Position numbers and translations under genes: made by a program. DNA of 64,000 nucleotides, taken from the NCBI RefSeq assembly GCF_001422545.1, contig NZ_LMLE01000008.1, forward strand, positions 51,946 to 115,945, in the 5' to 3' direction. The stretch's first letter is position 1; every line of letters begins with the position of its first letter. Origin of the DNA: Pedobacter sp. Leaf41 (GTDB taxonomy: Bacteria > Bacteroidota > Bacteroidia > Sphingobacteriales > Sphingobacteriaceae). The notes under the pieces were generated by a model. That model was given only the letters and a program-made list of their open reading frames with translations, was not told the origin of the DNA and ran no database searches. Below, piece by piece: positions 4,706 through 17,002 of the stretch.

Positions 4706-7030
4706 CTAGTCAGGATAGAAATATTTAAAAAGAACCTCATTTATGAGTAGCTTCATATATTGATTTCCCTCAGATAACCCTAATCCAATTTGTACAAGAC
4801 CGTCATATCCAAGCGAATTTCTTACGTCACTATTCTTCACATCAGGAAGCGGTATATCTTTTGTGTATTTCCTACCTAAGTCCCATCCTGACAGAAGTTG
4901 TTTCGAATAGATTGACAGCAAACTATCAAATAATGGACTTGAAAATATAGCTAAGTAAAAGTAGTAATCAGAATTCGTGAAAGCTTTTTTCGGAAGCCAA
5001 GCATTACCTCTTTCAACCGCAAACCTACCTGTTTTATCAAATGCGAATGAATCAGATTTTCCAAATTCAGAAGAAATCAAACGAGATTTGTTCTCTCTTA
5101 ACCATGCTCTTGGCTCACTTAGAAGCCACCAACTATTTTCACTTTTCCTTGCACGGTCGGCTAACATATCTTTCAAAGGGAACAACTTAAGAAAGAAAGT
5201 TGGCGCTTCTTTCTCAAATTCCTCTTCGGTCTTAATCAACGTCCCTTTTTCATTGTAAGGATACCATACGTAATTAATGATCTTAACACTACCATTTCTT
5301 ATTGATTCATTATCTGCACTAGGTCGAAAATATATTTTTTCCTTTTCTGGCAAATTTTCAAACTCGGAACTACTTATAATAAAAACTTTATTCTTACCGG
5401 TCCTAATTCCTTGTTGAACACCAAAAACATCTTCAACCCTTACTAATCTTTTCTCAAGAACATACCGTTCAATATTTTTAAACAGCTTATTCTCATCGAG
5501 TGAAATTGGTTTCCAACTGCCTTGAATTATAGGAAAGTCAATTGGTTGAAAAATACTGTAATTTCTTTCGTCTATAGTCAGTGCATTAGAATAGTACATC
5601 TTTCTCAAATCTCTGAGGGCTTCTTGGGCAACTCCTTTTTCATTCCTTGCCCAGAGAACTGTTGTAAGTATATTCACTTTAGGTCTATGACCAATTAATA
5701 AGCTAACATCAGTTAAGGCATCCTCAAAAACAAAATTTCCAAGTTTACCTATCAGACTTATCGAAATTAAATCAAATGCCTCCATTCTAAGTTTTTTGTA
5801 GGCATCTAACGACAATAATGAAGAGGGAACAACACAACCAATAATCCCACCATCATTTAAATTTTGAATACATTTATAAAAAAATGCACTGGCTTGATTT
5901 GGTTTACCAACAAAGACATTATCTAAAGTGTTTTTTACTACATCTTTTGATTGTTTATCCAAAAGTTCCCAAGAGACAAATGGAGGATTCATTAGAATTA
6001 AATCAAAATCGTTATCCCATATTTCTGATAATGAGTCATTGACTAATTTAACTTGAAAATCTAGTTTATCATTCCACACCGTTCTCTGCTCATACTTAAG
6101 CAAAAAGTTTGATGTGTTAATAGCTGTTTCTGAAGAATCCCATCCAACTAACCTAATTTCTCCCGCATAATTTAACTCTTTAAGTTGTTTTAATACTTCG
6201 ATAAGAAATTCGCATGATCCACATGCTGGGTCAAAAATTTTTATACTTGATAAATTAAGGTCGACTTTTCGTAATGCATTCTCGACTATGGTTCTTGCCA
6301 AATACGGTGGTGTGTAATGAATACTTGAGTAAAGATTTACTTTCGTCTCGAGTAAGCTAGAGACTCCTCCGAAAAGATCTCTCTGAGGATTGAAAAATAG
6401 CACCTCTTTTTGGGCTTCTTGGAATAGTATACCTGCAGAGTGTCGCAGAATTAATTCAAGTTCAGGCTTAATAGAATCAATCCCGTTTCTCATTTTATCA
6501 CTAAAGAAGTTGAAATTATCTGGAATATTAATTTGTTGAAGATTCCATTTTTCAGTATCAAGCTTCGTGGAATCTTCTTCTATGCTTGTCAACAAAACGA
6601 AAAGTAGGTTAAGTGCTTCAACAGGATTGGTCCTTTCTTGCGTTAAATTTCGTAATTGCCGAAATATGTCAATTATAAATGGTACGACATCTTTTTCAGA
6701 TTTGTAGCTTTTGGAAAGTAAATATGTATAGAATTTATCAAAGTTTTCTAAAACATTCTTTAAGGATATCTCTTCAGGAATGCTGTTTTGTTTAGACCAG
6801 TTGAATATTTTTAATTTATTATCATCTAATACAACAAAATTTTTGGTACTGCTCGACCAAGATTTCGAAAAATAATCTCCTAGTTCTTTTTCCTCATCTA
6901 TAGTTTGAAGGCAGAAATCACCATATCCTCCATTTAGAAGAATATAAGTAGTCTCATCAGTTGGTTTAAGTTTAATAGGTAGAAGACCAAATTTCTTCTT
7001 CCATGTTAATATCTCAGATAGATTTATCAT
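4706..7030 (-). CDS. N6-adenine DNA methyltransferase with TaqI_C-like specificity region
   Basis: 774 aa. Residues 1-200 form an unassigned helical N-terminal part. The Rossmann methyltransferase domain follows: HYTPPYLARTIV at about 238, SAM-binding DPACGS at 267-272, and catalytic NPPF at 348-351. After about 530, VEDVFGVQQGIRTGKNKVF resembles the TaqI-type C-terminal specificity domain that reads DNA. The layout is that of type IIG/Eco57I-like enzymes, yet I see no PD-ExK nuclease in the N-terminus, so it may only methylate or may work with the 201-aa partner 3 nt downstream. It would act on DNA in the cytoplasm to protect or mark it. Sequence appears AT-rich, as is common for acquired cargo. 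Confidence 0.85.
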   Translation of the reverse strand: MINLSEILTWKKKFGLLPIKLKPTDETTYILLNGGYGDFCLQTIDEEKELGDYFSKSWSSSTKNFVVLDDNKLKIFNWSKQNSIPEEISLKNVLENFDKFYTYLLSKSYKSEKDVVPFIIDIFRQLRNLTQERTNPVEALNLLFVLLTSIEEDSTKLDTEKWNLQQINIPDNFNFFSDKMRNGIDSIKPELELILRHSAGILFQEAQKEVLFFNPQRDLFGGVSSLLETKVNLYSSIHYTPPYLARTIVENALRKVDLNLSSIKIFDPACGSCEFLIEVLKQLKELNYAGEIRLVGWDSSETAINTSNFLLKYEQRTVWNDKLDFQVKLVNDSLSEIWDNDFDLILMNPPFVSWELLDKQSKDVVKNTLDNVFVGKPNQASAFFYKCIQNLNDGGIIGCVVPSSLLSLDAYKKLRMEAFDLISISLIGKLGNFVFEDALTDVSLLIGHRPKVNILTTVLWARNEKGVAQEALRDLRKMYYSNALTIDERNYSIFQPIDFPIIQGSWKPISLDENKLFKNIERYVLEKRLVRVEDVFGVQQGIRTGKNKVFIISSSEFENLPEKEKIYFRPSADNESIRNGSVKIINYVWYPYNEKGTLIKTEEEFEKEAPTFFLKLFPLKDMLADRARKSENSWWLLSEPRAWLRENKSRLISSEFGKSDSFAFDKTGRFAVERGNAWLPKKAFTNSDYYFYLAIFSSPLFDSLLSIYSKQLLSGWDLGRKYTKDIPLPDVKNSDVRNSLGYDGLVQIGLGLSEGNQYMKLLINEVLFKYFYPD

Positions 7031-7244
7031 TTAGAACAAAAATGCATTTTTTTAAAGATTCTCAATACAAAAAACTCAAATATTATACAATGAGCTGTTT
7101 CAGTGGGTACGATACTTATATTGGAATTGCCAAAATTATATTTCGTCTAGATTTAGAAAATAAAACAAATAAAATAGACCTTAACATTTAGACATGGACA
7201 AACACTTGCAAATGAGAAATTTTGGCTTTAAATGATTTTAGGTA

Positions 7245-7643
7245 TTATTTTGACTTCAGCATTTCTACTTTTTCCTTTTCACTTGCTAGTAATCTTTCAA
7301 GTAAAGCGATCTTTTCATCGTAAAGATTCACTATTTTTTCAATGGGACTAAAGTTATAGTAATGTCCATATGACGCTGATTGATCGTTATAAACATTAGC
7401 TATGAAACTAATTGTGGCTTCATCAGAATAATTTTTTATCGCGTCAGCCGAAACGCCTAAAACTTCAGCAATTTTATTCAGGGTAGACTCTTCAATTTCC
7501 TCACTTTGCTCCAGCTTACTTATTGATTGTTGACTAATACCTAATTCAGTTGCAAGCATTTCCTGTTTCATTCCTCGCAATTCGCGAATTCTAGAAATTT
7601 TCCGTCCTAAATGCATGCGAGTTGTTTTTTCTGAGGTTTCCAT
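7245..7643 (-). CDS. XRE-family HTH transcriptional regulator
   Basis: 132 aa. An HTH_3 domain occupies about residues 12-66 (KISRIRELRGMKQEMLATEL, then GISQQSISKLE). A C-terminal coiled-coil stretch (IVNLYDEKIALLERLLASEK) is typical of Bacteroidota XRE regulators and probably dimerises. It is divergent from the HEPN/430-aa pair across a 121-nt region with an inverted repeat, so control of that pair and of itself is likely. A TAnnTTTG box ends only 4 nt before its ATG, suggesting a leaderless or nearly leaderless message. Confidence 0.85.
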   Translation of the reverse strand: METSEKTTRMHLGRKISRIRELRGMKQEMLATELGISQQSISKLEQSEEIEESTLNKIAEVLGVSADAIKNYSDEATISFIANVYNDQSASYGHYYNFSPIEKIVNLYDEKIALLERLLASEKEKVEMLKSK

Positions 7644-7764
7644 ATTCCAAATATATCTAAATTTTCTTTGGTAAAAAACAATCAGTCTGTTGTATTAAAC
7701 AGTTTGGTATGGTTCGGTACTGTCATATCAATCTTGACATTAGGGAAAACAAATCATATAAGCC
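7644..7764. promoter_or_regulatory. Divergent promoter/operator region of XRE and HEPN genes
   Basis: On the minus strand TATATTTG (7648-7655) is a Bacteroidota -7 box placed 4 nt before the XRE ATG. Toward the middle there is an interrupted CTGT/ACAG inverted repeat (about 7687-7702), followed by a repeated TTTGGTA/TTCGGTA phrase (about 7703-7720). These are plausible XRE operators. The plus-strand promoter of the HEPN gene is not clear. Confidence 0.4.
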
Positions 7765-8646
7765 ATGAGAGGAATAACCTTAACACCCGCACTATCAATT
7801 TCTGATGGACTAAATGTATTTATTGAAATACTGGTAAAGAAATTTGAGCCCCTCAAAATTTATTCATTTTGCAGAATTATAAAATCCAATAATCGAACAG
7901 GTTGCTTTATAACTTGTATAGAGAAAGACGAGCCACACTACTTTCTGCTAATGATAATGGAAAGCTCAACCAGGAATGAACATGAAGCCCAAGACTTTTG
8001 TCGTTCACATTTTAATGAAGTTAAAATCACTATTCTTTCGCATGGCTTTGAAACGATCAAGGAGTGTATCCAAAAAAACAATAGGTTTTTCATTACGATA
8101 TTAAACCAAGGGAGGCTTCTCTATAATAATACTGGAATCCTGGCGCAGGAAACCGAAATCAAATTTGACCCCAGCCAAAACTTTGAAAAGGCAAAAAAGC
8201 ATTTTGAACATCGGATAAAATTGGCTCAAGGTTTTTTGGACGCGGCAGCAGATAGTTATGCTAATCAACATTATGCCATTGCCGTTTTTTTGACCCACCA
8301 GGTCATCGAACAATGTACCATTGCATTGATCAGGGTAAATCTCGCTTACAGGTCGGATATTCATCACTTAGGCCGTCAACTTGATCTCTGCTGTTGCTTT
8401 TCAGAAGAGCCTTCTAAGCTTTTTAGAACTACAAAAGATGATCTTTCATTATTTGAAATTTTACTACGAAGCTATTCCCAGGCAAGATATAAGGATACTT
8501 TTAAAGTTGATTCGGATGACGCCGATAAACTTGTATCAAAAGCATATAAATTCTTTGAACTCACTAAAGAAATTTGCACTAATAAAATATCTGAGTTTAA
8601 ACTGCAAAACGAAAAGCAAATAGAAATGGAGGTAGGTTTTGAATAA
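7765..8646 (+). CDS. Degenerate nucleotidyltransferase-HEPN fusion protein
   Basis: 293 aa. Residues 141-270 match the HEPN domains of Bacteroidota nucleotidyltransferase-HEPN proteins: a long helix with AVFLTHQVIEQC, then AYRSDIHHLGRQLDLC, then SYSQARYKDTF. Residues 1-130 sit where the nucleotidyltransferase domain should be, but the GSxxxG...D catalytic signature is absent, so that half looks inactive. HEPN proteins often act as RNases or as partners in toxin and defence modules. Whether this one cleaves RNA is unclear, since only an R-x3/4-H arrangement (YRSDIHH) is visible. The downstream gene begins inside its 3' end (8-nt overlap), which points to a joint function. Confidence 0.7.
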   Translation: MRGITLTPALSISDGLNVFIEILVKKFEPLKIYSFCRIIKSNNRTGCFITCIEKDEPHYFLLMIMESSTRNEHEAQDFCRSHFNEVKITILSHGFETIKECIQKNNRFFITILNQGRLLYNNTGILAQETEIKFDPSQNFEKAKKHFEHRIKLAQGFLDAAADSYANQHYAIAVFLTHQVIEQCTIALIRVNLAYRSDIHHLGRQLDLCCCFSEEPSKLFRTTKDDLSLFEILLRSYSQARYKDTFKVDSDDADKLVSKAYKFFELTKEICTNKISEFKLQNEKQIEMEVGFE

Positions 8647-9931
8647 TTTAACTCCCGATATACCTTTCTACAGGTTTTTTAAACTTCCCTTCAAAAATGG
8701 AACGCGATTGCTGGAACGGAAAACACTGGATTCATTATCAGAATTTAGGTCACCAAAACGCAGCTACCTATCTGTTAGCGTAAAAAATTTGGGTTTTGTT
8801 AACGAGATACTTATCGCCTCTATAAGTATCGAAAAAGAAGATATCGAAATGGTATACCTGAAAGTAACGCAGGATCATTTACTTATCAGTTGCAGCGTCG
8901 ATACAGATGAATTTTATTTAAGCAGATATGCCTACTTTTTTCTAAATAAATATTTATGGTTTTATCATGAAAAAAGTTTTGAAGATTATTACTATCCGGA
9001 TTTCTTTGATGCTTATAAAGGGACATCAAAATATTTGAAAATCGTGAGCAATAGTAAAGGGCTATCCATTAAACTCAAAGAATCATTTAGGAATCTTTTT
9101 AAACCAGGCGTTTCGCTTCCCATTATTCCGCTAAAAAATGAGGCAAGAATAAATATTTTTCTTGAACCACAATTATCGGATTCATCAGAAAATGACACAC
9201 CAGTTATCGCATATTGTATTTTAGATCCCTTAAACCTACACGAGAAATACAATGAAGAAAAAGAATTGCCTTTACTCATTCCTTTTACAGCAACCCTAAA
9301 TAATGACAAAATAAATTTTAAATCATTATTGACATACTTAAACAGTAAAACAATATCAGACGATCCGGAGCTAAATTCAGCGCAGCTTAATCTGAACGAC
9401 ATTTGTGAAGAAATGTGGGAGAATTCTTACTATTTTAAAATGAAAAACCATAAAGACGACAATCATAGCAGAACTTTTTCCGAAAGGAAAAAATTACAGT
9501 TTGATCTTTGGAAAAGTGCACTTCCACAACTTGTGAATGAACGGTTCATGTGCTATCAATGGATTTATGGATTAAGATATATAAAAGGAAAGCCGACAAA
9601 AAAAGATATTCGATTCTGTCAGGTTGCCAGTGATATACCTCAACTGAAATTTTTTCTTATTGACAAAGGAGAATACTATTTTCTTGACCTGAAATTTATG
9701 GTGAATGGCAGGCTCTTCAATTTTCCGCCAATCTTTAACATGTTCTTTTTTGCTGCTGCAGAAAAGGAGCCGATGAAGTTTTACTTGTTAGGCTCGCTGG
9801 CTGATGCTGAAATCGTATCTTATTTCTCAAAAATAAGTTTTCGGTTGCCGGTACTAAAGAAACATTATGATACCCACTTGAAGACCTTTGTCCTACAGAT
9901 TGAGCAAACATATAGCATAACCCAAAGATAG
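8639..9931 (+). CDS. Unknown 430-aa protein coupled to HEPN gene
   Basis: I do not recognise this soluble protein. It starts with TTG at 8639, supported by GGAGG at 8628-8632 and by the 8-nt overlap with the HEPN gene, which signals translational coupling. It is rich in aromatic residues and has no TM helix. Its C-terminal 70 residues (FYLLGSLADAEIVSYFSK and following) faintly recall the region before the helicase domain of Bacteroidota SNF2 proteins. I give that low weight. Transcription ends at a strong terminator 15 nt after the stop. The pair with its divergent XRE regulator forms a self-contained cassette within the island. Confidence 0.6.
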   Translation: MNNLTPDIPFYRFFKLPFKNGTRLLERKTLDSLSEFRSPKRSYLSVSVKNLGFVNEILIASISIEKEDIEMVYLKVTQDHLLISCSVDTDEFYLSRYAYFFLNKYLWFYHEKSFEDYYYPDFFDAYKGTSKYLKIVSNSKGLSIKLKESFRNLFKPGVSLPIIPLKNEARINIFLEPQLSDSSENDTPVIAYCILDPLNLHEKYNEEKELPLLIPFTATLNNDKINFKSLLTYLNSKTISDDPELNSAQLNLNDICEEMWENSYYFKMKNHKDDNHSRTFSERKKLQFDLWKSALPQLVNERFMCYQWIYGLRYIKGKPTKKDIRFCQVASDIPQLKFFLIDKGEYYFLDLKFMVNGRLFNFPPIFNMFFFAAAEKEPMKFYLLGSLADAEIVSYFSKISFRLPVLKKHYDTHLKTFVLQIEQTYSITQR

Positions 9932-9985: not shown

Positions 9986-10062
9986 CGCGGATGTAAAAAG
10001 CAAGCCTGGGGTGGATATTGAGCGGCAAGGTTTGCAGGCCACAAATGCGTAGTGGGTAATTA

Positions 10063-10671
10063 TCAATTAGCTTTTTTCTGCTTATCCTTTAAATTCTTTT
10101 TTGATTTCCGTGCGGTTTCATAATCTTTCTTTGCCTTGGCTTCCTTTAAGCTTGCCTCGATTAATAACTGATGCTGATGGATTTGGAGATCAGCATTTTT
10201 CATCAGGTTTTCTTTGTCTTTCAGGTAATGCCCGTCAATTTCAATGGCTAGCTCAGGGTAGGCACCGCGTATGACCTTAAATTTATCTGATTCGGTTTTG
10301 AGCTCACTGTTCCTTAAGATTAAAGAAATGGAACTCCCCAAAGAAATTGCAACAACAAGAAAAATAATTATTGCACCAACAAAATAGAACTTTGATCTTA
10401 TCTCATAGTGATGTTGGTGCTTTACCTTAAACGCTTCAGGTAACTGCTCTATTTTTTTCTTTAACTCATTCATCGAAACGGCAAATCTATTAAGCTCCTC
10501 AATAGAAGGCATGATTCCTCCATCTAACGTAGTTATTGCAATCTCCTCATCCGCCTGCGAATGCTGCTGCTCAATAATAATCGATAGCTTTTCATCCTGG
10601 GATCTCATCTGACCAATAAGCAGATCCATGATCTCTTCTATATTTTCTAATTTTTCATTTATCTTTTCCAT
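10063..10671 (-). CDS. Mobilization-associated TM coiled-coil protein
   Basis: 202 aa. It has an N-terminal coiled coil (about 1-30), one TM helix (about 96-118, FYFVGAIIIFLVVAISLGSS) and a long charged, lysine-rich helical C-terminus. It lies 21 nt after the relaxase stop in the same direction, a position where Bacteroidota mobilizable elements often carry a membrane protein of this shape. It may tether the relaxosome to the membrane or to the helper's coupling protein. That role is inferred from context. No enzymatic motif is present. Confidence 0.65.
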   Translation of the reverse strand: MEKINEKLENIEEIMDLLIGQMRSQDEKLSIIIEQQHSQADEEIAITTLDGGIMPSIEELNRFAVSMNELKKKIEQLPEAFKVKHQHHYEIRSKFYFVGAIIIFLVVAISLGSSISLILRNSELKTESDKFKVIRGAYPELAIEIDGHYLKDKENLMKNADLQIHQHQLLIEASLKEAKAKKDYETARKSKKNLKDKQKKAN

Positions 10672-10692
10672 TAGATTGTATTTAATTTGTAA

Positions 10693-11637
10693 TTACCTGC
10701 CTCTTCCCTGACTTTGTTCTTCATCATAACCGGTTCCTCTTTTTTTCTTTTTTCTGGGCTCCGGTTCAGCTTGAATCGGCGAGAACGTCGGCGTAAACAG
10801 AATCTCCAATACTTCAGCCAATTTAGAGGATTCACTAAACGTCCCCTTGCCAGGAGAACTTTCACCAAATTCCTTTTCTGGCAAGCCTGTTTTGGTAGAA
10901 TCCTGTTGAACAGATATATCCTCGAAAAAGGCATTGAGTTTACCATAACTTAGCGACCTGTCAATTTCCGAACCTTTAAAAGTATATTCTTCGCTCTTAA
11001 ATGAAACGCCCTGTATTTCGTTTTTACCATTCTTATATTTGAAAAACATTTCAATGCCGGCATTGGATAGTTTATTTCCAAAGCTGTCCCAGTCTTTACT
11101 GCTATTTTGTGCTGATTTGATTTGGTCAAAAAGCTGGTAACGGATCTTATCGCTCCCTTTGAGGGCCTTTCTGTTAACTTTGTCTCGATCCTTTGCCATA
11201 AATAACCCATGCTTTACGGTTATTTCTTTGCAGGCCGAAACATTTTTTTTAAACTGGAACTGGTCAGAGATTGTCTTACCATCATTGTCCACCCGATTAT
11301 AAATTATGTGTAAATGGGGGTGATGGTTATCATTATGCCGGACAACAAGCAACTGCGTATTTTTTATGACCATGAGTTTCAAATATTCCATTGCCATTGC
11401 CAACATATTTTCACTACTCAATTTATCTCTATCAAGTTCACTCCAGCTAAGGGAAATGTGGGCTACCGCTTTTGAAAGTTCCGGATTCATCTTTCTTTGG
11501 AAATCAAAATCCCTTACAATGAGGGATGGATTATCCATCCTGATCCCATCCCCATGAAGAATCTCTGCATCCTTCTTATTTACCACATAGCGAACACAAC
11601 CACCGAAGCTTTTTCCAATTACAACTTTTCCTATCAT
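10693..11637 (-). CDS. Relaxase / mobilization nuclease (MobA/VirD2 type)
   Basis: 314 aa. It begins MIGKVVIGKSFGGCVRYV, where Tyr17 is the likely nicking tyrosine. Motif III lies at 101-110 (HNDNHHPHLH), whose histidines bind the catalytic metal. Both are diagnostic of the PF03432 relaxases of Bacteroidota mobilizable elements. The enzyme nicks oriT, stays covalently bound to the 5' end and leads the strand into the recipient. Its ATG overlaps the stop of mobC by 4 nt. The tail after about 270 is charged and poorly conserved in look. The gene appears intact. Confidence 0.92.
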   Translation of the reverse strand: MIGKVVIGKSFGGCVRYVVNKKDAEILHGDGIRMDNPSLIVRDFDFQRKMNPELSKAVAHISLSWSELDRDKLSSENMLAMAMEYLKLMVIKNTQLLVVRHNDNHHPHLHIIYNRVDNDGKTISDQFQFKKNVSACKEITVKHGLFMAKDRDKVNRKALKGSDKIRYQLFDQIKSAQNSSKDWDSFGNKLSNAGIEMFFKYKNGKNEIQGVSFKSEEYTFKGSEIDRSLSYGKLNAFFEDISVQQDSTKTGLPEKEFGESSPGKGTFSESSKLAEVLEILFTPTFSPIQAEPEPRKKKKRGTGYDEEQSQGRGR

Positions 11638-11993
11638 TCCCTGAAATACTTAGCAATCAATTCATGTATCTCACCTATCAACTCCCTGCACTTTTTCTGG
11701 AACACCAGTAGTCCTTGCTCATGAGAAAGCTTGGTAAGCTGGTTCAGGTTGTTTGCCATTCCTGCAAGTATCCTGAATACCTTCAAATCCTCAGGACTTA
11801 TTCTTGGTGAAACCTTTCCTGCTTTAGCCGCCTGGCGAAACCATTCACTGATTTTAATTCCAGCCTTATTTGCTTTTCCCTCAATCATAAAATGATCTGT
11901 TTTGCTCAATCTCACCATAATAATCTTTTCTCGTTTTATCTTCTTTACCGGCCTGCCTCCCTTGGACTTTCCTGCATTTAATCGTTCTTCCAA
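11634..11993 (-). CDS. mobC: MobC-like relaxosome accessory protein
   Basis: About 119 aa from the chosen TTG at 11993 (start MEERLNAGKSKGGRP). A basic N-terminus is followed by a ribbon-helix-helix-like part (IIMVRLSKTDHFMIEGKANK) and the PF05713 signature LAGMANNLNQLTKLSHEQG. MobC proteins bind oriT and help the relaxase open and nick DNA. A TTG at 12050 would give 138 aa, but it would start inside the structured oriT candidate. The stop overlaps the relaxase start (ATGA). Family confidence is high and start confidence is low. Confidence 0.85.
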   Translation of the reverse strand: MEERLNAGKSKGGRPVKKIKREKIIMVRLSKTDHFMIEGKANKAGIKISEWFRQAAKAGKVSPRISPEDLKVFRILAGMANNLNQLTKLSHEQGLLVFQKKCRELIGEIHELIAKYFRE

Positions 11994-12046
11994 AATGTTC
12001 CTTAATTTTTCTTCACCTACTTTTTGCGACCATCGGGAGTAAAAAG

Positions 12047-12104
12047 GCAAGTTCTTTTTCGCCAGAGCGAAAAAGGTTTTTGTATAGCAAAAACATAAAC
12101 TTGC
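12047..12104. other. Three-way-junction DNA element, candidate oriT
   Basis: The outer stem GCAAGTT (12047-12053) / AACTTGC (12098-12104) encloses two adjacent perfect hairpins: CTTTTTCGC/GCGAAAAAG (12054-12062 / 12067-12075) and GTTTTTG/CAAAAAC (12076-12082 / 12088-12094). The element lies just upstream of mobC and the relaxase gene, the usual place of oriT in such elements. It could also be a regulatory RNA or a transcription end for the gene at 12141. The nick site cannot be placed from sequence alone. Confidence 0.5.
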
Positions 12105-12140
12105 TCCCTCATAATGCCCAGTCGATCGCCGCCTAAAATT

Positions 12141-13061
12141 CTACTGTTTAATTAATAATTTTAAAATCTGATATGCCCTTTTCCGATCTCCATAAGCAGC
12201 ATAATGAATAAGAATATCGCAGGGAGATCCACCTTTTTTATTGATGAAAAATTGTGCAGCAGGAGCTTCACTACTGAATACAAAAAATGTTCTTAAAATG
12301 GTATGGTATTCTGCACTGAGTCCATTCCTAATCTCCTTTCCGGGCCTGGTGTACCGAATCCTTGGACCTTTATGGCTGTGGCATTTCCAACCTGCATTCA
12401 ATGGGATGGTATTGATAATATCCGGATCGGCTTGCCTGTTAAAATCTTGCCAAATATTTCCATTCATACTAGAACTAAGCTGACCAGTTAATGGCCTACT
12501 AACTACAGTCTCGAGAAAAAGTCTTTCCTTAAAAAGGACTGCCTCGTCATCAAAAAAAGCATCAGGATCAAAGGACAGAAAACGATATGAGGCCACGTTT
12601 CTCGGCGCAGTATCCAGGGAAATATCCCAATTATAAAAATACTGAACCATGGCGTCAAAATGCTCCTTGTGAGATTCAACAAACTCAATAGGAATCAAAC
12701 CCCATAATCCATTTCCGCTTGCTGATTTACCGCAATAGGCCACGTAAGGGATTGCAATAATCCTCTTGAATATATTATCGAGCCTCTCGCCAAGACCGTC
12801 AACATCAAAAGCAAGATAACCACTATGGCTTTGATGAAAGCGCTCACCTCGTCCACCGATTTGCTGACTACACGGGGTAATTGCAAGCAATTTTCCTTTT
12901 AAGTATTGCTGCCTAGAACACTTGTATTCACATTGTCGGATTTCGTTTAAAATATCAGTTTGCCGAGAGGTTGACAAAGCATCAAACAATGTAATTGATT
13001 TTGGGGAGGTACTGTATTTATTCTCGAAAATACTGCACCAAGCTGTTTTCAAACTTCTCAT
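12141..13061 (-). CDS. BT4734/VirE_N family primase-like protein
   Basis: About 306 aa from ATG 13061; a GTG at 13100 would add 13 residues. Features of the BT4734/BF3469 (VirE N-terminal, PF08800) family are visible: the KLLAITPCSQQIGGRG region at about 55-70, then SGYLAFDVDG, then YCGKSASGNGLWGLIPI. The fold is related to archaeo-eukaryotic primases. In Bacteroidota mobile elements this protein accompanies a RepA/DnaB-like ATPase and probably helps replicate or prime the excised element. It stands between the RepA-like gene and mobC, all on the minus strand. A large hairpin (13123-13171) separates it from the upstream gene. Confidence 0.8.
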   Translation of the reverse strand: MRSLKTAWCSIFENKYSTSPKSITLFDALSTSRQTDILNEIRQCEYKCSRQQYLKGKLLAITPCSQQIGGRGERFHQSHSGYLAFDVDGLGERLDNIFKRIIAIPYVAYCGKSASGNGLWGLIPIEFVESHKEHFDAMVQYFYNWDISLDTAPRNVASYRFLSFDPDAFFDDEAVLFKERLFLETVVSRPLTGQLSSSMNGNIWQDFNRQADPDIINTIPLNAGWKCHSHKGPRIRYTRPGKEIRNGLSAEYHTILRTFFVFSSEAPAAQFFINKKGGSPCDILIHYAAYGDRKRAYQILKLLIKQ

Positions 13062-13122
13062 AAAAAGAGTTTTGGAACTGAAATAGAATGGCCCTTCCAC
13101 TTGCCGTTCCAGTTTACTTTAT

Positions 13123-13171
13123 GAACTAAACTGAAATGGCTCTACCTTTAGGTAGCCATTCAGTTTAGTTC
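13123..13171. other. Long near-perfect hairpin between primase-like and RepA-like genes
   Basis: The arms GAACTAAACTGA...CTACC (from 13123) and GGTAG...TCAGTTTAGTTC (to 13171) pair over about 20 bp with a few bulged bases and a TTTA loop. The structure covers the last codons of the RepA-like gene. It has no T tail on the minus strand, so an ordinary terminator is unlikely. It may be a replication or processing signal. Confidence 0.55.
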
Positions 13172-14341
13172 AGTATCTGGATTCAGGTTAATTATCGCTG
13201 CCTTTCCGCGAAGGCTTTCCTCTTCCGGATTGGAAAGGATCTTGTCAATTTGCAATCTGGTAATCAAATCACTGACCTTATTCAGGCCTGGACTCTGATC
13301 CAGATCAAATGAATTTCTAAGTCCTTTCGCCAGCAAGGGTTTTAGTTGTGAGCGGAGGAGTCCATTACCAAATTTCACAAAGATGGATTTGAGAATAGCT
13401 TTCAGCAAATCCTTATCTATTGCATCATAATTTTGAAGGACTTTCTTTGATTCGCTTACCTGGCTATCCCGTGAATGAATAAGATCATCGAATAAAACCC
13501 TTCTACCGGTATTAGAAAAAGTCAGCGTTAAAGGGTCGCACTCCAATACGAAACTTGAACCTTTAAACTCTAATCCAAGATAATTACCCTTGCGTACGGA
13601 GAGGTGCTTCAAGTTACCATTGAAGACATCATTCCTTAATTCCAGTACCAATCTGCACTTCTGCTCAAGTCCACCTGCTCCCTGCACATTGCTCTTGTTT
13701 GGGATAAGAGATTCTGTCCGCTTATTGGTATGATGCATCAGCAATATCAAACATTGATAGGTTGTGGCAAGCCGCTTCATACAGCTAAGTACATGCCTTA
13801 CCTCTCCATTGTCTTTGATATCATTAACCAAATCACCAAGCGTATCAATCTTGATGATGTCTATTTGCTGGCAAACCAAAATATTCTCTAATTTGCCAAT
13901 GAGGTTATCTGCATCGAAAATGAAGTAAAGGTTTTCCAAAGACCGGATAATTAAATCCTCTGGTTCACCTTTAAGCTGTTTCCGTATTAAATAACTGATG
14001 GCAAGATCATCATCTTCAGTACATACAATAATTGCCTTACGGGAAAGTTGCTCTGAAAAAGGAAAACCTATAAACTGACTTTTGTTTAACACCAGGGAGA
14101 GGATAAGATCCCTTGCGAAAATTGACTTTCCGGTATCTGAACTACCTGCGAGTAAAACTAGGCCAACTTTTGGTAACAAGTCACCAAGCATTTTTGGTAA
14201 TTCCAGAATATTTCGCCGAAAGAGATCAGCACCGGAGAAAACACCGCCTATTTCTGCGTTATCTATTAATTGACTCTTGTTAGCAATAAGAATATCGTTC
14301 CTATGAACAGAAAGGTTGTTTATTCCTGCTGAATTTTTCAT
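13160..14341 (-). CDS. RepA/DnaB-like AAA (RecA-fold) ATPase
   Basis: 393 aa. Walker A is GSSDTGKS (about residue 65), Walker B is IDIIKIDTLGDL (about 160), and a sensor-like stretch LILLMHHTNK follows at about 195. The set is typical of AAA_25/RepA-type hexameric helicases found beside VirE_N proteins in Bacteroidota mobile elements. It probably loads at, or unwinds, the excised element during replication. Its ATG overlaps the stop of the HTH protein gene by 4 nt, so HTH, ATPase and probably the primase-like gene form an operon. The last codons lie in the hairpin at 13123-13171. The gene appears intact. Confidence 0.85.
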   Translation of the reverse strand: MKNSAGINNLSVHRNDILIANKSQLIDNAEIGGVFSGADLFRRNILELPKMLGDLLPKVGLVLLAGSSDTGKSIFARDLILSLVLNKSQFIGFPFSEQLSRKAIIVCTEDDDLAISYLIRKQLKGEPEDLIIRSLENLYFIFDADNLIGKLENILVCQQIDIIKIDTLGDLVNDIKDNGEVRHVLSCMKRLATTYQCLILLMHHTNKRTESLIPNKSNVQGAGGLEQKCRLVLELRNDVFNGNLKHLSVRKGNYLGLEFKGSSFVLECDPLTLTFSNTGRRVLFDDLIHSRDSQVSESKKVLQNYDAIDKDLLKAILKSIFVKFGNGLLRSQLKPLLAKGLRNSFDLDQSPGLNKVSDLITRLQIDKILSNPEEESLRGKAAIINLNPDTELN

Positions 14342-14637
14342 ATAGAAGATCCTTTTTGTTTTTCAACGGCAGCCTCTACTGCTTCAATAGAATATAATAC
14401 TCGCCTACCAATTCGATTGGGGATGAGAATACCAGCCTTTTCCCAGTAATAGAGTGTTGTAAGGGACACATTTAAAAGACGTCTTGTTTCCTCTCGCGTT
14501 TTATACCGGATTTTTTCTTCTGGGTCTTCTCGGGAAGAACTGGTATTTTTAAAGAGTTCACCAAAAACTTCTCTTACTTGCTCGGAAAGAACTTCCTTGA
14601 ATTCTGAATCCGAATAACTTGTTAAAATTTGTGCCAT
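14338..14637 (-). CDS. HTH protein, MerR/excisionase-like
   Basis: 99 aa from ATG 14637 (AGAAGG lies just before it); a TTG at 14661 is possible. The C-terminal half has a winged HTH of the excisionase/MerR_1 type (YKTREETRRLLNVSLTTLYY, then WEKAGILIPNRIGRRVLY). Such proteins precede the RepA-like gene in Bacteroidota elements and act as excisionase or as regulator of excision. The stop overlaps the ATPase start (ATGA). With no integrase in the island, an excision role here would need a partner supplied in trans. Confidence 0.8.
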   Translation of the reverse strand: MAQILTSYSDSEFKEVLSEQVREVFGELFKNTSSSREDPEEKIRYKTREETRRLLNVSLTTLYYWEKAGILIPNRIGRRVLYSIEAVEAAVEKQKGSSI

Positions 14638-14661
14638 ACCTTCTGTAATTGAATTGCACAA

Positions 14662-15145
14662 TGTTCACTAGGATAAACTTTGGGATACTATCATTATTTA
14701 TAGTAAGTTCATTTTATTGGTGGTACTATGAGATTATTAGATTCGTAGGAAACTACATTAAGTCTAATGGGACTAATTTTTTAAAAAAATGGTATCACAA
14801 TCACAAAACATAGTTAATAAATTTACAGAAGAACGCTTTATTGATACAATAATGAAGATCGGATATGCCAGGGTTTCTACCAAAGAGCAAATTTAATTTG
14901 CGGATTGAAGCTCTCGAAAAAGCGGGATGAAAATTATTTTTAGGAATATAATTTTTAAAAAGAGGTAAAACAGGATCATCATATCAATTAAGCTGTTTTA
15001 ACGCTACCGATTAAGTTATCGTGAGCATAAGAAAAATACGGACTATCCTTGGCGTGCTGAATAATTGTGTAAATGATTTTTTTGCCGTTACTGGATTTCC
15101 AAGGGAAGTCTAATTACATTATACCTTCTGAAATATCCAACTTCG
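14662..15145. other. Decayed region where an integrase would be expected
   Basis: This 484-nt stretch has no intact gene. It holds a GGTGGTACTATG unit (about 14720-14731) like those of the end repeats, the serine-recombinase remnant at 14852, and AT-rich sequence with frequent stops. In comparable elements a tyrosine integrase often stands near here, between the HTH gene and the tRNA, but I could not recognise any fragment of one. Confidence 0.5.
14852..14934 (+). pseudogene. Serine recombinase/resolvase N-terminal remnant
   Basis: ATG 14852 reads MKIGYARVSTKEQI and then a stop. A second frame continues as NLRIEALEKAG before another stop. Together these match the conserved start of Pin/resolvase-type serine recombinases (IGYARVST with the catalytic Ser, then the LxxQxxAL helix) with a net loss of two bases between them. 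The rest of the gene is absent. It may be a leftover of an invertase or resolvase once carried by the island. Confidence 0.75.
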
Positions 15146-15364
15146 ATGATAGATTATGATTACGGTTTGAAATTTGGTATTGACATTCCAGCGTTTCCTC
15201 ACATACGACAAAGCAATTTGTGGAGAATAAAAAAGGAATTTCCAGAACAATGTATTACGTCATTTCAGAAAATATATGATGAGGACAATGATGTGAAAGA
15301 GTTTAAAGATTGGATTGATCAGGAATGGCAGGTCAAAATTTCATTTAACAAAACGGAGAGATGA
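15146..15364 (+). CDS. Small hypothetical protein
   Basis: A 72-aa acidic, aromatic-rich peptide (MIDYDYGLKFGIDIPAFPHI) with no recognised domain, signal peptide or TM helix. It is the only intact plus-strand frame between the mobilization core and the envelope cluster, and it follows a decayed region. It could be a real small gene, or a fragment of a larger lost one. I see no close neighbour in the same direction. Confidence 0.4.
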   Translation: MIDYDYGLKFGIDIPAFPHIRQSNLWRIKKEFPEQCITSFQKIYDEDNDVKEFKDWIDQEWQVKISFNKTER

Positions 15365-15499
15365 ATGTTTAGAATTTGATGTTAATCAGGGGTAAACTAT
15401 TTAGCGATGTTATACTGAGTCTGCTTGAATTGGGCCAGAGTTAAAATATGCCCGTTTTAAGATACTCAAAGTTTGAATAGTAAGAATCCCTGGTGTTTA

Positions 15500-17002
15500 C
15501 TAATACCATAACTGTACACCATTGTTATAAATGAAAGGTCTTGAACATTTATCTATCCTTGAATTCCCAGTCAGTTTGTATAAATGATCTTTACGTACCC
15601 TAAGAAAGGTGATTGAAGAATCTCTTTTCGCCTCTACTTTTGAATGCATAGTCCAATAGCCTTTATTGTTTAATACAGATAACGTATAGATTTCCTTCTT
15701 TCTGATCCATGAAAACTCATCGGAAGACCGTCCAAGCGTTATATCGCTTCTCGACTTTGACTGCTTATCGAAGAACATACAACTTCCATCGTTATTAAAT
15801 ATAAAAGGCTTTCCAATAAACTTCAATCCGCTCTCAGTAGGTAAGGCTATTCTATAGAGCATATTTGTGGCCATGTTTGGAAACGATATCGTTTGATTAG
15901 AAATTTTTCCATAGTAAATAGGCTTCCATTCACAATAATTATAAACACATATATATCCCAATTTTTTCGACGTTCCGTTTTCCATAGTATATCTAATATT
16001 CTTTACATTAGTATAATTACTGGTTACGTCGATTAAATTATCGTTTTTATATAGATGCTCAATACAAAATGGGTCTTTTTTAATTAGGGGTTGAATAGAG
16101 TCCGTCCACATATTAGTCTTTCTAAAAGTTATCCTAAAAACCTTTGGTGGGTGATCAAGAAATTGATTTTTTGAGGGAAGTAAAGACCGGATTGTTCCGT
16201 TATGCAACTTGCTAGCATGATGATAAACATCAACAGCATGCCCCCCATTTCTATTCCCCCAATATGGAACCAAATCGACAGTAGCTGGTATTCCCGCCGT
16301 TCTTAGTAGATATACGTGTAGATACGCCAACCTTAAGCAGTCACCTTTTTTTATAAGATTCATTTCATTGAAGGACGGATAGCCGGTTAGTGCTGTAAAA
16401 TTAGTAGAATACTTAAACCACTTGTCTGAACCATTTACAATTAAGTTATCATAGATGTCCTCCGAAGTGGTAGAATTATTCTTGGCGTAAGTAGTTAAAG
16501 TTTTTTTCAGCTTCATTCTCAGAAGCTTTCTCCACTCATCTGGATATTCCCCATGTACTTTATAAGGTAAAACATAGTCTAAAAACAAATCCTTAGCAAC
16601 TGTTTTGTTCCATGGATATTGCTTCCAGTCTCCTATTGCTATATTTATCTCATCCTCTAAACGATTATCATCAATTACTGTGGAATCTGCAATGAATTTT
16701 GTTTTAAGATATGAATGATTTCGCTCTAAGTTTTTAAAAAGTCCTTCTTCGGACTTAAAATTTGATAGAATTAACCGAGTTCCATGTAGATTTGGATCAA
16801 TAACAAAAGAGGTTTGTGAAGTAAGTCCAGACATATTTTTATAAAGAAATGAAGCCGACAATAGCTTAAGGCTGTCCGTAGGATTACCCCTATATTTCTT
16901 CAAAAGGGTTCTATTTCCTTTATTCACCTCCTTACATCCACAAAGCAGAATAATTATGCTTACAAGAGAGGAAAGCCTAATCAACTTATTGAAAGTATGC
17001 AT
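15500..17002 (-). CDS. Lipoprotein with transglutaminase-like domain
   Basis: 500 aa. A lipoprotein signal ends at Cys23 (LLCGC). The transglutaminase/papain-like core shows GDCLRLAYLHVYLLRTAGIP (Cys222) and NGGHAVDVY (His255, Asp258), the order expected for the catalytic triad. The C-terminal 200 residues look beta-rich. It would sit in the outer or inner membrane facing the periplasm or surface and could act as a protease or cross-linking enzyme. It is the last gene of a minus-strand cluster with a 112-aa protein 1 nt upstream and an O-antigen-ligase-like protein. The substrate is unknown; the small upstream protein is one candidate. Confidence 0.75.
   Translation of the reverse strand: MHTFNKLIRLSSLVSIIILLCGCKEVNKGNRTLLKKYRGNPTDSLKLLSASFLYKNMSGLTSQTSFVIDPNLHGTRLILSNFKSEEGLFKNLERNHSYLKTKFIADSTVIDDNRLEDEINIAIGDWKQYPWNKTVAKDLFLDYVLPYKVHGEYPDEWRKLLRMKLKKTLTTYAKNNSTTSEDIYDNLIVNGSDKWFKYSTNFTALTGYPSFNEMNLIKKGDCLRLAYLHVYLLRTAGIPATVDLVPYWGNRNGGHAVDVYHHASKLHNGTIRSLLPSKNQFLDHPPKVFRITFRKTNMWTDSIQPLIKKDPFCIEHLYKNDNLIDVTSNYTNVKNIRYTMENGTSKKLGYICVYNYCEWKPIYYGKISNQTISFPNMATNMLYRIALPTESGLKFIGKPFIFNNDGSCMFFDKQSKSRSDITLGRSSDEFSWIRKKEIYTLSVLNNKGYWTMHSKVEAKRDSSITFLRVRKDHLYKLTGNSRIDKCSRPFIYNNGVQLWY

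Follow-up and report, generated by a model that had tools for sequence, protein, structure and literature searches.

An element folding as a three-way junction followed by a core-bearing hairpin, at about 12018..12107 on the minus strand, is very probably the oriT of the MOBP-type module of an integrated mobilizable element in Pedobacter sp. Leaf41. Positions are those of the window, the whole 64,000-nucleotide stretch of contig NZ_LMLE01000008.1 that was analysed. The first-pass annotation had proposed a candidate oriT here, and the proposal was supported by constant placement of the element, covariation, a nick-like core and copies on relaxase-less islands. A wider reading is more tentative. 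We consider it possible, if slightly on the doubtful side, that the element belongs to a phylum-wide oriT family in which the nick core is fixed and the preceding fold is exchanged, that what the relaxosome or relaxase recognizes is a three-dimensional junction of single-stranded DNA and not a repeat sequence, and that defence-type islands lacking a relaxase bear this folded tag too and are mobilized in trans. The element offers a searchable oriT signature for Bacteroidota mobilizable elements, where few oriTs are mapped.

Gene context and fold in the window

The element is intergenic: a primase-like gene ends before it (stop at 12141) and mobC follows, with the relaxase gene further downstream. 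Read along the minus strand, the order is an HTH_17 protein (14338..14661; domain match, putatively excisionase-like by its position), an AAA_25 helicase-like ATPase (13160..14341; domain match), a primase-like protein matching a BT4734-like N-terminal domain (12141..13100), the element, NikA-like MobC (PF21983/PF05713; 11634..11993) and a MobA/VirD2-like relaxase identified by Pfam (PF03432; 10693..11637). The arrangement is that of a mobilizable element, and the gene annotation of the window agrees with the placement upstream of mobC and the relaxase gene that had been noted initially. The mobC start was reassigned to TTG 11993. A TTG within the outer stem of the junction (12050) had been put forward as the start; the longer reading frame from it passes through the core. 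In the close relatives L003 and L007, an ATG aligned exactly with the window's TTG at 11993-11991, and L002 also has TTG there, so TTG 12050 is unlikely to be the mobC start and is probably unused.

On the minus strand, 12104 down to 12047 reads GCAAGTTTATG-TTTTTGCTATACAAAAAC-CTTTTTCGCTCTGGCGAAAAAG-AACTTGC. The outer stem P1 comprises a 5' arm, GCAAGTT (12098..12104), paired with a 3' arm, AACTTGC (12047..12053), and its pairs were near-invariant in 54 distinct relatives. Within it lie hairpin P2 (GTTTTTG-CTATA-CAAAAAC; 12076..12094, arms 12076-12082/12088-12094), almost constant in sequence among relatives, and hairpin P3 (CTTTTTCGC-TCTG-GCGAAAAAG; 12054..12075, arms 12054-12062/12067-12075), whose sequence varies freely with its pairing kept. 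Sequence and folding analysis thereby confirmed the earlier description of a 7-bp outer stem enclosing two perfect back-to-back hairpins at 12047-12104. Both strands folded to the three-way junction (-21.9 and -20.1 kcal/mol, z about -5), and none of 200 shuffles matched its folding stability. The junction is part of a larger element, which is extended downstream on the mobC-sense strand by the adjoining hairpin H4 (CTTTTTAC...GCAAAAAG; 12020..12046). The loop of H4 holds the invariant core TCCCG-A-TGGT (12029..12038), and eight of the ten H4 pairs showed two-sided changes. The whole element scored 79.1 bits with covariance model R1. It was the single strong R1 match in its own genome (5.3e-15); the next, L036 (21.7 bits, E 0.24), was taken as chance.

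The cargo adjoining the mob genes (4706-9931) includes an N6 methylase (Eco57I/MmeI-like), an HTH_3 regulator and a HEPN-domain protein, and represents possible defence cargo. At 14850-14930 there is a remnant, stopped early; it is MKIGYARVSTKEQ-like, and we take it to resemble the beginning of a serine recombinase. No TIGR03783 conjugation ATPase was found in the genome and no PF00589 tyrosine integrase within the window, so this copy may rely on incoming helpers or be stranded.

Conservation and covariation among relatives

The same element was present before mobC in four named Pedobacter genomes, with relaxases 63-90% identical by best segment, and at loci from 300 genomes of the order. The alignment of these relatives also brought out the further hairpin after the junction, with the fixed core in its loop. 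Model R1 matched 31 of 31 sources (30 loci and the window), all on the mobC strand. Across the 300 genomes of the order there were 100 matches in 71 genomes, and 83 of the 100 are followed, on the same strand, by a relaxase at a distance of 373-508 nt. Counted from the relaxases, using the best 104 relaxase matches (E up to 9.1e-36; weaker ones left out), 83 of 104 had an R1 match upstream. The remaining 21 had none, and the core was present in all 20 of these that were fetched. The element thus adjoins relaxase and auxiliary mobilization genes as MOBP-type oriTs in general do. Plasmid pMMCAT (L094) carries a related relaxase, yet the core is absent upstream of it. In a sample of the phylum, R1 matched in only 10 of 395 genomes, so the three-way-junction form appears mainly characteristic of the family to which the host belongs; matches in other families are weaker.

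Seventeen R1 matches were unpaired with a relaxase. Eight are orphan copies (L075, L082-L088; see below), one (L081) ends 145 nt from a contig end, two (L089, L092) are followed by mobC or relaxase matches that have diverged, and two (L090, L091) have a decayed core, with mob genes not found nearby. Four weak matches (28-29 bits: L134-L136, G110) were left out of the orphan assessment.

An alignment of 59 elements (54 distinct) had 94.2% of cells paired, although this alignment was fitted to the structure and is biased towards it. Among the 54 distinct sequences, 20 of 35 pairs had two-sided changes in some sequence, two-sided cells numbered 197 against 52.1 expected, and none of 500 shuffles reached any of five covariation measures. 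Slid controls of this alignment fell to 38-59% paired. In an unfitted MAFFT alignment of 21 sequences, no shuffle out of 500 reached four of the five measures, and 81 of 500 reached the fifth (further pair types). The three-way-junction class therefore passed the comparison across relatives that the first-pass annotation had suggested. P3 had two-sided changes in 10 of 10 pairs (54 distinct sequences), and despite its variation in sequence and length, all 46 distinct P3 segments folded as hairpins (z -1.4 to -5.9). The P1 pairs hardly vary, and the pairing of the outer stem is thus not itself proven by covariation.

The behaviour of P3 bears on a duplex protein-binding site, such as a MobC operator or a cruciform, with the single-stranded fold unused and the nick elsewhere. 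We consider this unlikely, since P3 pairing was kept despite free sequence change, which a protein reading duplex sequence would not need, and the adjoining core resembles a nick region. It would nevertheless suit the preservation of P1 and P2 in sequence as well as shape, and the nearly pure Watson-Crick P3 stems on both strands.

Control of mobC-relaxase expression or of transfer by RNA, either a structured 5' leader or a small RNA, was also considered; control of mobC translation by a 5' RNA had been raised in the first-pass annotation. A selected RNA is expected to tolerate G-U pairs on its own strand. G-U pairs in P3 were rare on either strand (7/383 sense, 13/397 antisense), without an excess on the sense strand, and the antisense strand folded better in 33 of 46 segments. 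Selection on DNA is therefore more likely than selection on RNA, although the numbers are small, and the element provides a case of covariation supporting selection on a branched fold. An RNA would explain why the element always lies on the mobC-sense strand upstream of mobC and why its compact fold covaries. There is also a precedent in SGI1, which requires an sRNA of its own (sgm-sRNA), encoded next to its oriT (PMC9299015). SGI1 resembles the present case in having structured sequence beside an oriT and mobilization genes in an integrated island, and differs in its mobilization proteins and in that no sign of sense-strand RNA selection was seen here. However, eight intact copies stand without mobC, the next gene downstream being convergent in three (L075, L084, L086), and the proposed TTG is probably not the mobC start. 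Furthermore, window 10000-15500 had no Rfam 15 match up to E 1, and eight related loci gave only tRNAs at the Rfam gathering score. We regard the RNA explanation as decidedly improbable. The element may have an additional regulatory role besides that of oriT.

Two further structural classes were observed. In the second (L107-L116, L019, L021, L031, L033), the outer stem GGAGCGAGTT/AACTCGCTCC continues directly into the core; covariation was not significant in this class, 180 of 500 shuffles reaching the score with 11 sequences that are too alike. For the third (L117-L132), a four-way cloverleaf with CAAGTTTA/TAAACTTG pairing around the core hairpin is possible and is not claimed. The minimum-energy fold of L127 and L130, in which the stem runs into the core, was a three-way junction and not a cloverleaf; L132 folded with an outer arm, and most members of the class escaped the search pattern.

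The core, the putative nick and transfer

The 20 relaxase loci fetched without an R1 match all carried, upstream of mobC, either TCC(C/T)G-N-T(G/A)GT or a similar sequence, mostly with simpler hairpins in front of it; the core region of distant relatives reads TATCCCGT. Among the relatives as a whole, the folds before the core comprised a single hairpin, a three-way junction running into the core, and a three-way junction with a core hairpin. The distant relatives, with their single hairpin before the same core, also conform to the earlier remark that an oriT usually has one inverted repeat. Four of the 20 loci read TATCCCG|T and one CTCCTG|A, which is close to the MOBP nick consensus (C/T)ATCCTG(C/T), given with an upstream inverted repeat in an excerpt of PMC3772185. 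The window core, CTCCCGA, lies outside the RP4/VirD2 nick-region class, with no exact YATCCTGY in 11601-12200.

The base after the core G varied (A 51, T 30, G 18, C 4; n=103) and the preceding G was constant, which fits a cut between the two. We infer a nick on the minus strand at TCCCG|A, between 12034 and 12033, and the fold would stand 5' of it. Consistent with an oriT, inverted-repeat structure lies 5' of a conserved core on one strand. The core table comprised 103 of 127 locus records that pass an automatic core-plus-mobC rule, several places being entered twice; the pick for L105 is P3 sequence, and L118 and L131 are in the wrong frame. Among the other 24 records, a core match was found in 23, and L042 has CTCCCAATGG. 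Two core classes were distinguished, T...C/A and G...T at positions 0 and 10, and the 16 rows with G at position 0 were the same 16 with T at position 10. The Parabacteroides plasmid L096 has one core of each class side by side. A tandem pair of core copies before mobC was seen in the Bacteroidales-type loci L096, L170 and L171.

The core was also searched alone in 98 genomes around G639, judged from its relaxase and hairpin to be of the Bacteroidales type, and turned up 17 places, compared with 2 when the pattern was reversed. Twelve loci were read: 10 had a relaxase 398-473 nt downstream, one stopped at a contig end and one lay within an unrelated gene.

As in the RP4/VirD2-type MOBP oriT, a relaxase of MOBP type and an auxiliary protein resembling NikA are encoded beside the element, and the fold precedes a nick-like TCC(C/T)G core, on its 5' side and on the same strand. 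It differs in its core, CTCCCG-N-TGGT in the window, and in having a three-way junction and hairpin in place of one inverted repeat. Bacteroides oriTs (Tn4399, Tn5520, CTn341) come from the same phylum and were compared by description. In excerpts of PMC5704250, Tn4399 is classed as MobP, with a single auxiliary protein and a nick that has been mapped, and the nick is said to have been located in some Bacteroidetes elements; a CTn341 nick is mentioned in an excerpt of PMC5729914. The gut Bacteroidales members, with a single hairpin before the core, may coincide with the known Bacteroides oriTs. The literature search, which covered mostly titles and the starts of abstracts, returned nothing joining a three-way junction, an oriT and a relaxase, and no description of the element; in the passages covered, the GUCCY-hairpin and Pedo-repair motifs occurred only in a table of PMC2864571.

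As a working model, MobC and the relaxase would load at the folded arms, and the relaxase would cut immediately 3' of TCCCG on the strand that is sense for mobC (the minus strand of the window). The transferred strand would exit 5' end first via the channel of a helper. The junction, left at the 3' end of this strand, would refold as single-stranded DNA and could position the nick site for strand rejoining after transfer. With the mob genes on the nick side, these would enter the recipient first. RP4 transfers its relaxase genes last, the reverse of this order.

Copies beyond the phylum and on relaxase-less islands

Exact P2 matches of 23-24 nt were found just before mobC-relaxase in three plasmids of Roseobacteraceae (Rhodobacterales), from Phaeobacter, Sulfitobacter and Roseivivax (L157, L158, L159), near 2501-2524 of these loci and 56-57 nt before mobC. 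In the Sulfitobacter record, the mobC and relaxase genes are annotated as hypothetical. In a fourth plasmid, from Pelagovum, the match adjoins a T4CP-like gene at the end of the record. There was no sign of the nick core TCCCGNTGGT next to the P2 hairpin in these Roseobacteraceae plasmids; CCCGATGG, which coincides with the start codon of mobC in L157, resembles coding sequence. As a control, the P2 21-mer occurred twice in 345 genomes of the class, both at known element places, and its reverse did not occur. P2 matches in Buchnera, Enterobacter, Klebsiella, Priestia and Mycoplasmopsis plasmids were taken as chance; in the two contexts read among them (H40, H42), mobC was not beside the match. 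A Borrelia match (H31) had no adjoining mob genes and was likewise taken as chance. The exact P2 pattern had no match in viral_contigs.

Eight intact elements (L075, L082-L088) had no mobC or relaxase within the stretches read, as assessed by tblastn with the window relaxase, MobC and primase and by Pfam on 20 proteins. The class A orphans, L082 and L083, come from two genomes; they share the tRNA-Ser location and differ in cargo, and the order is tyrosine integrase, HTH_3 regulator, element, cargo. The L082 island (1999-10772 of L082; G054:C1:2541998-2550771) is 8.8 kb, relaxase-less and carries restriction-like cargo, with a 16-nt tRNA-Ser repeat at 2541998 and 2550756. Its seven genes encode an integrase, an HTH protein, thymidylate synthase, a C5 methylase, HD-CE, an ORC-CDC6-like protein and one unassigned protein. 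For L083 (G286), the repeat was not found within the stretch read. The class B orphans (L075, L084, L086, L088) have paired tyrosine recombinase genes within about 0.5-2 kb, several with Rhs-like genes as well, and a Toprim/CHC2-type primase protein nearby (Pfam for L075; BLAST similarity for L084, L086 and L088). L085 and L087 are of uncertain type.

These neighbours raise two other functions. A single-strand site at which the element's own primase would begin priming after transfer would fit the primase-like gene adjoining the element in the window and the Toprim/CHC2 protein near several orphan copies; it is nonetheless highly unlikely, as the seven listed genes of the L082 island include no primase and the fixed distance is to the relaxase. 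Hardly credible is an att-like recombination site for tyrosine recombinases, used as a folded single strand like an integron attC: most copies track mobC-relaxase and the G054 integration repeat is a tRNA-Ser 3' end about 2.2 kb from the element, even though the class B copies lie so near paired tyrosine recombinases.

Read as oriTs, the orphan copies resemble the integrated elements with an oriT and without a relaxase that are termed iOriT in an excerpt of PMC11389934, in that they sit on islands lacking mobC and relaxase. L082 combined an integrase, tRNA-Ser repeats and the element, with relaxase and mobC matches absent. The orphan islands differ from iOriTs in being candidates known from sequence, with mobilization in trans presumed. 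No account of such orphan oriT elements in Bacteroidota was found among the titles and abstract openings that made up most of the literature search. The element makes testable how relaxase-less islands spread, including one with methylase-HD-ORC type cargo. At L084, a tandem duplication about 8.5 kb apart was observed.
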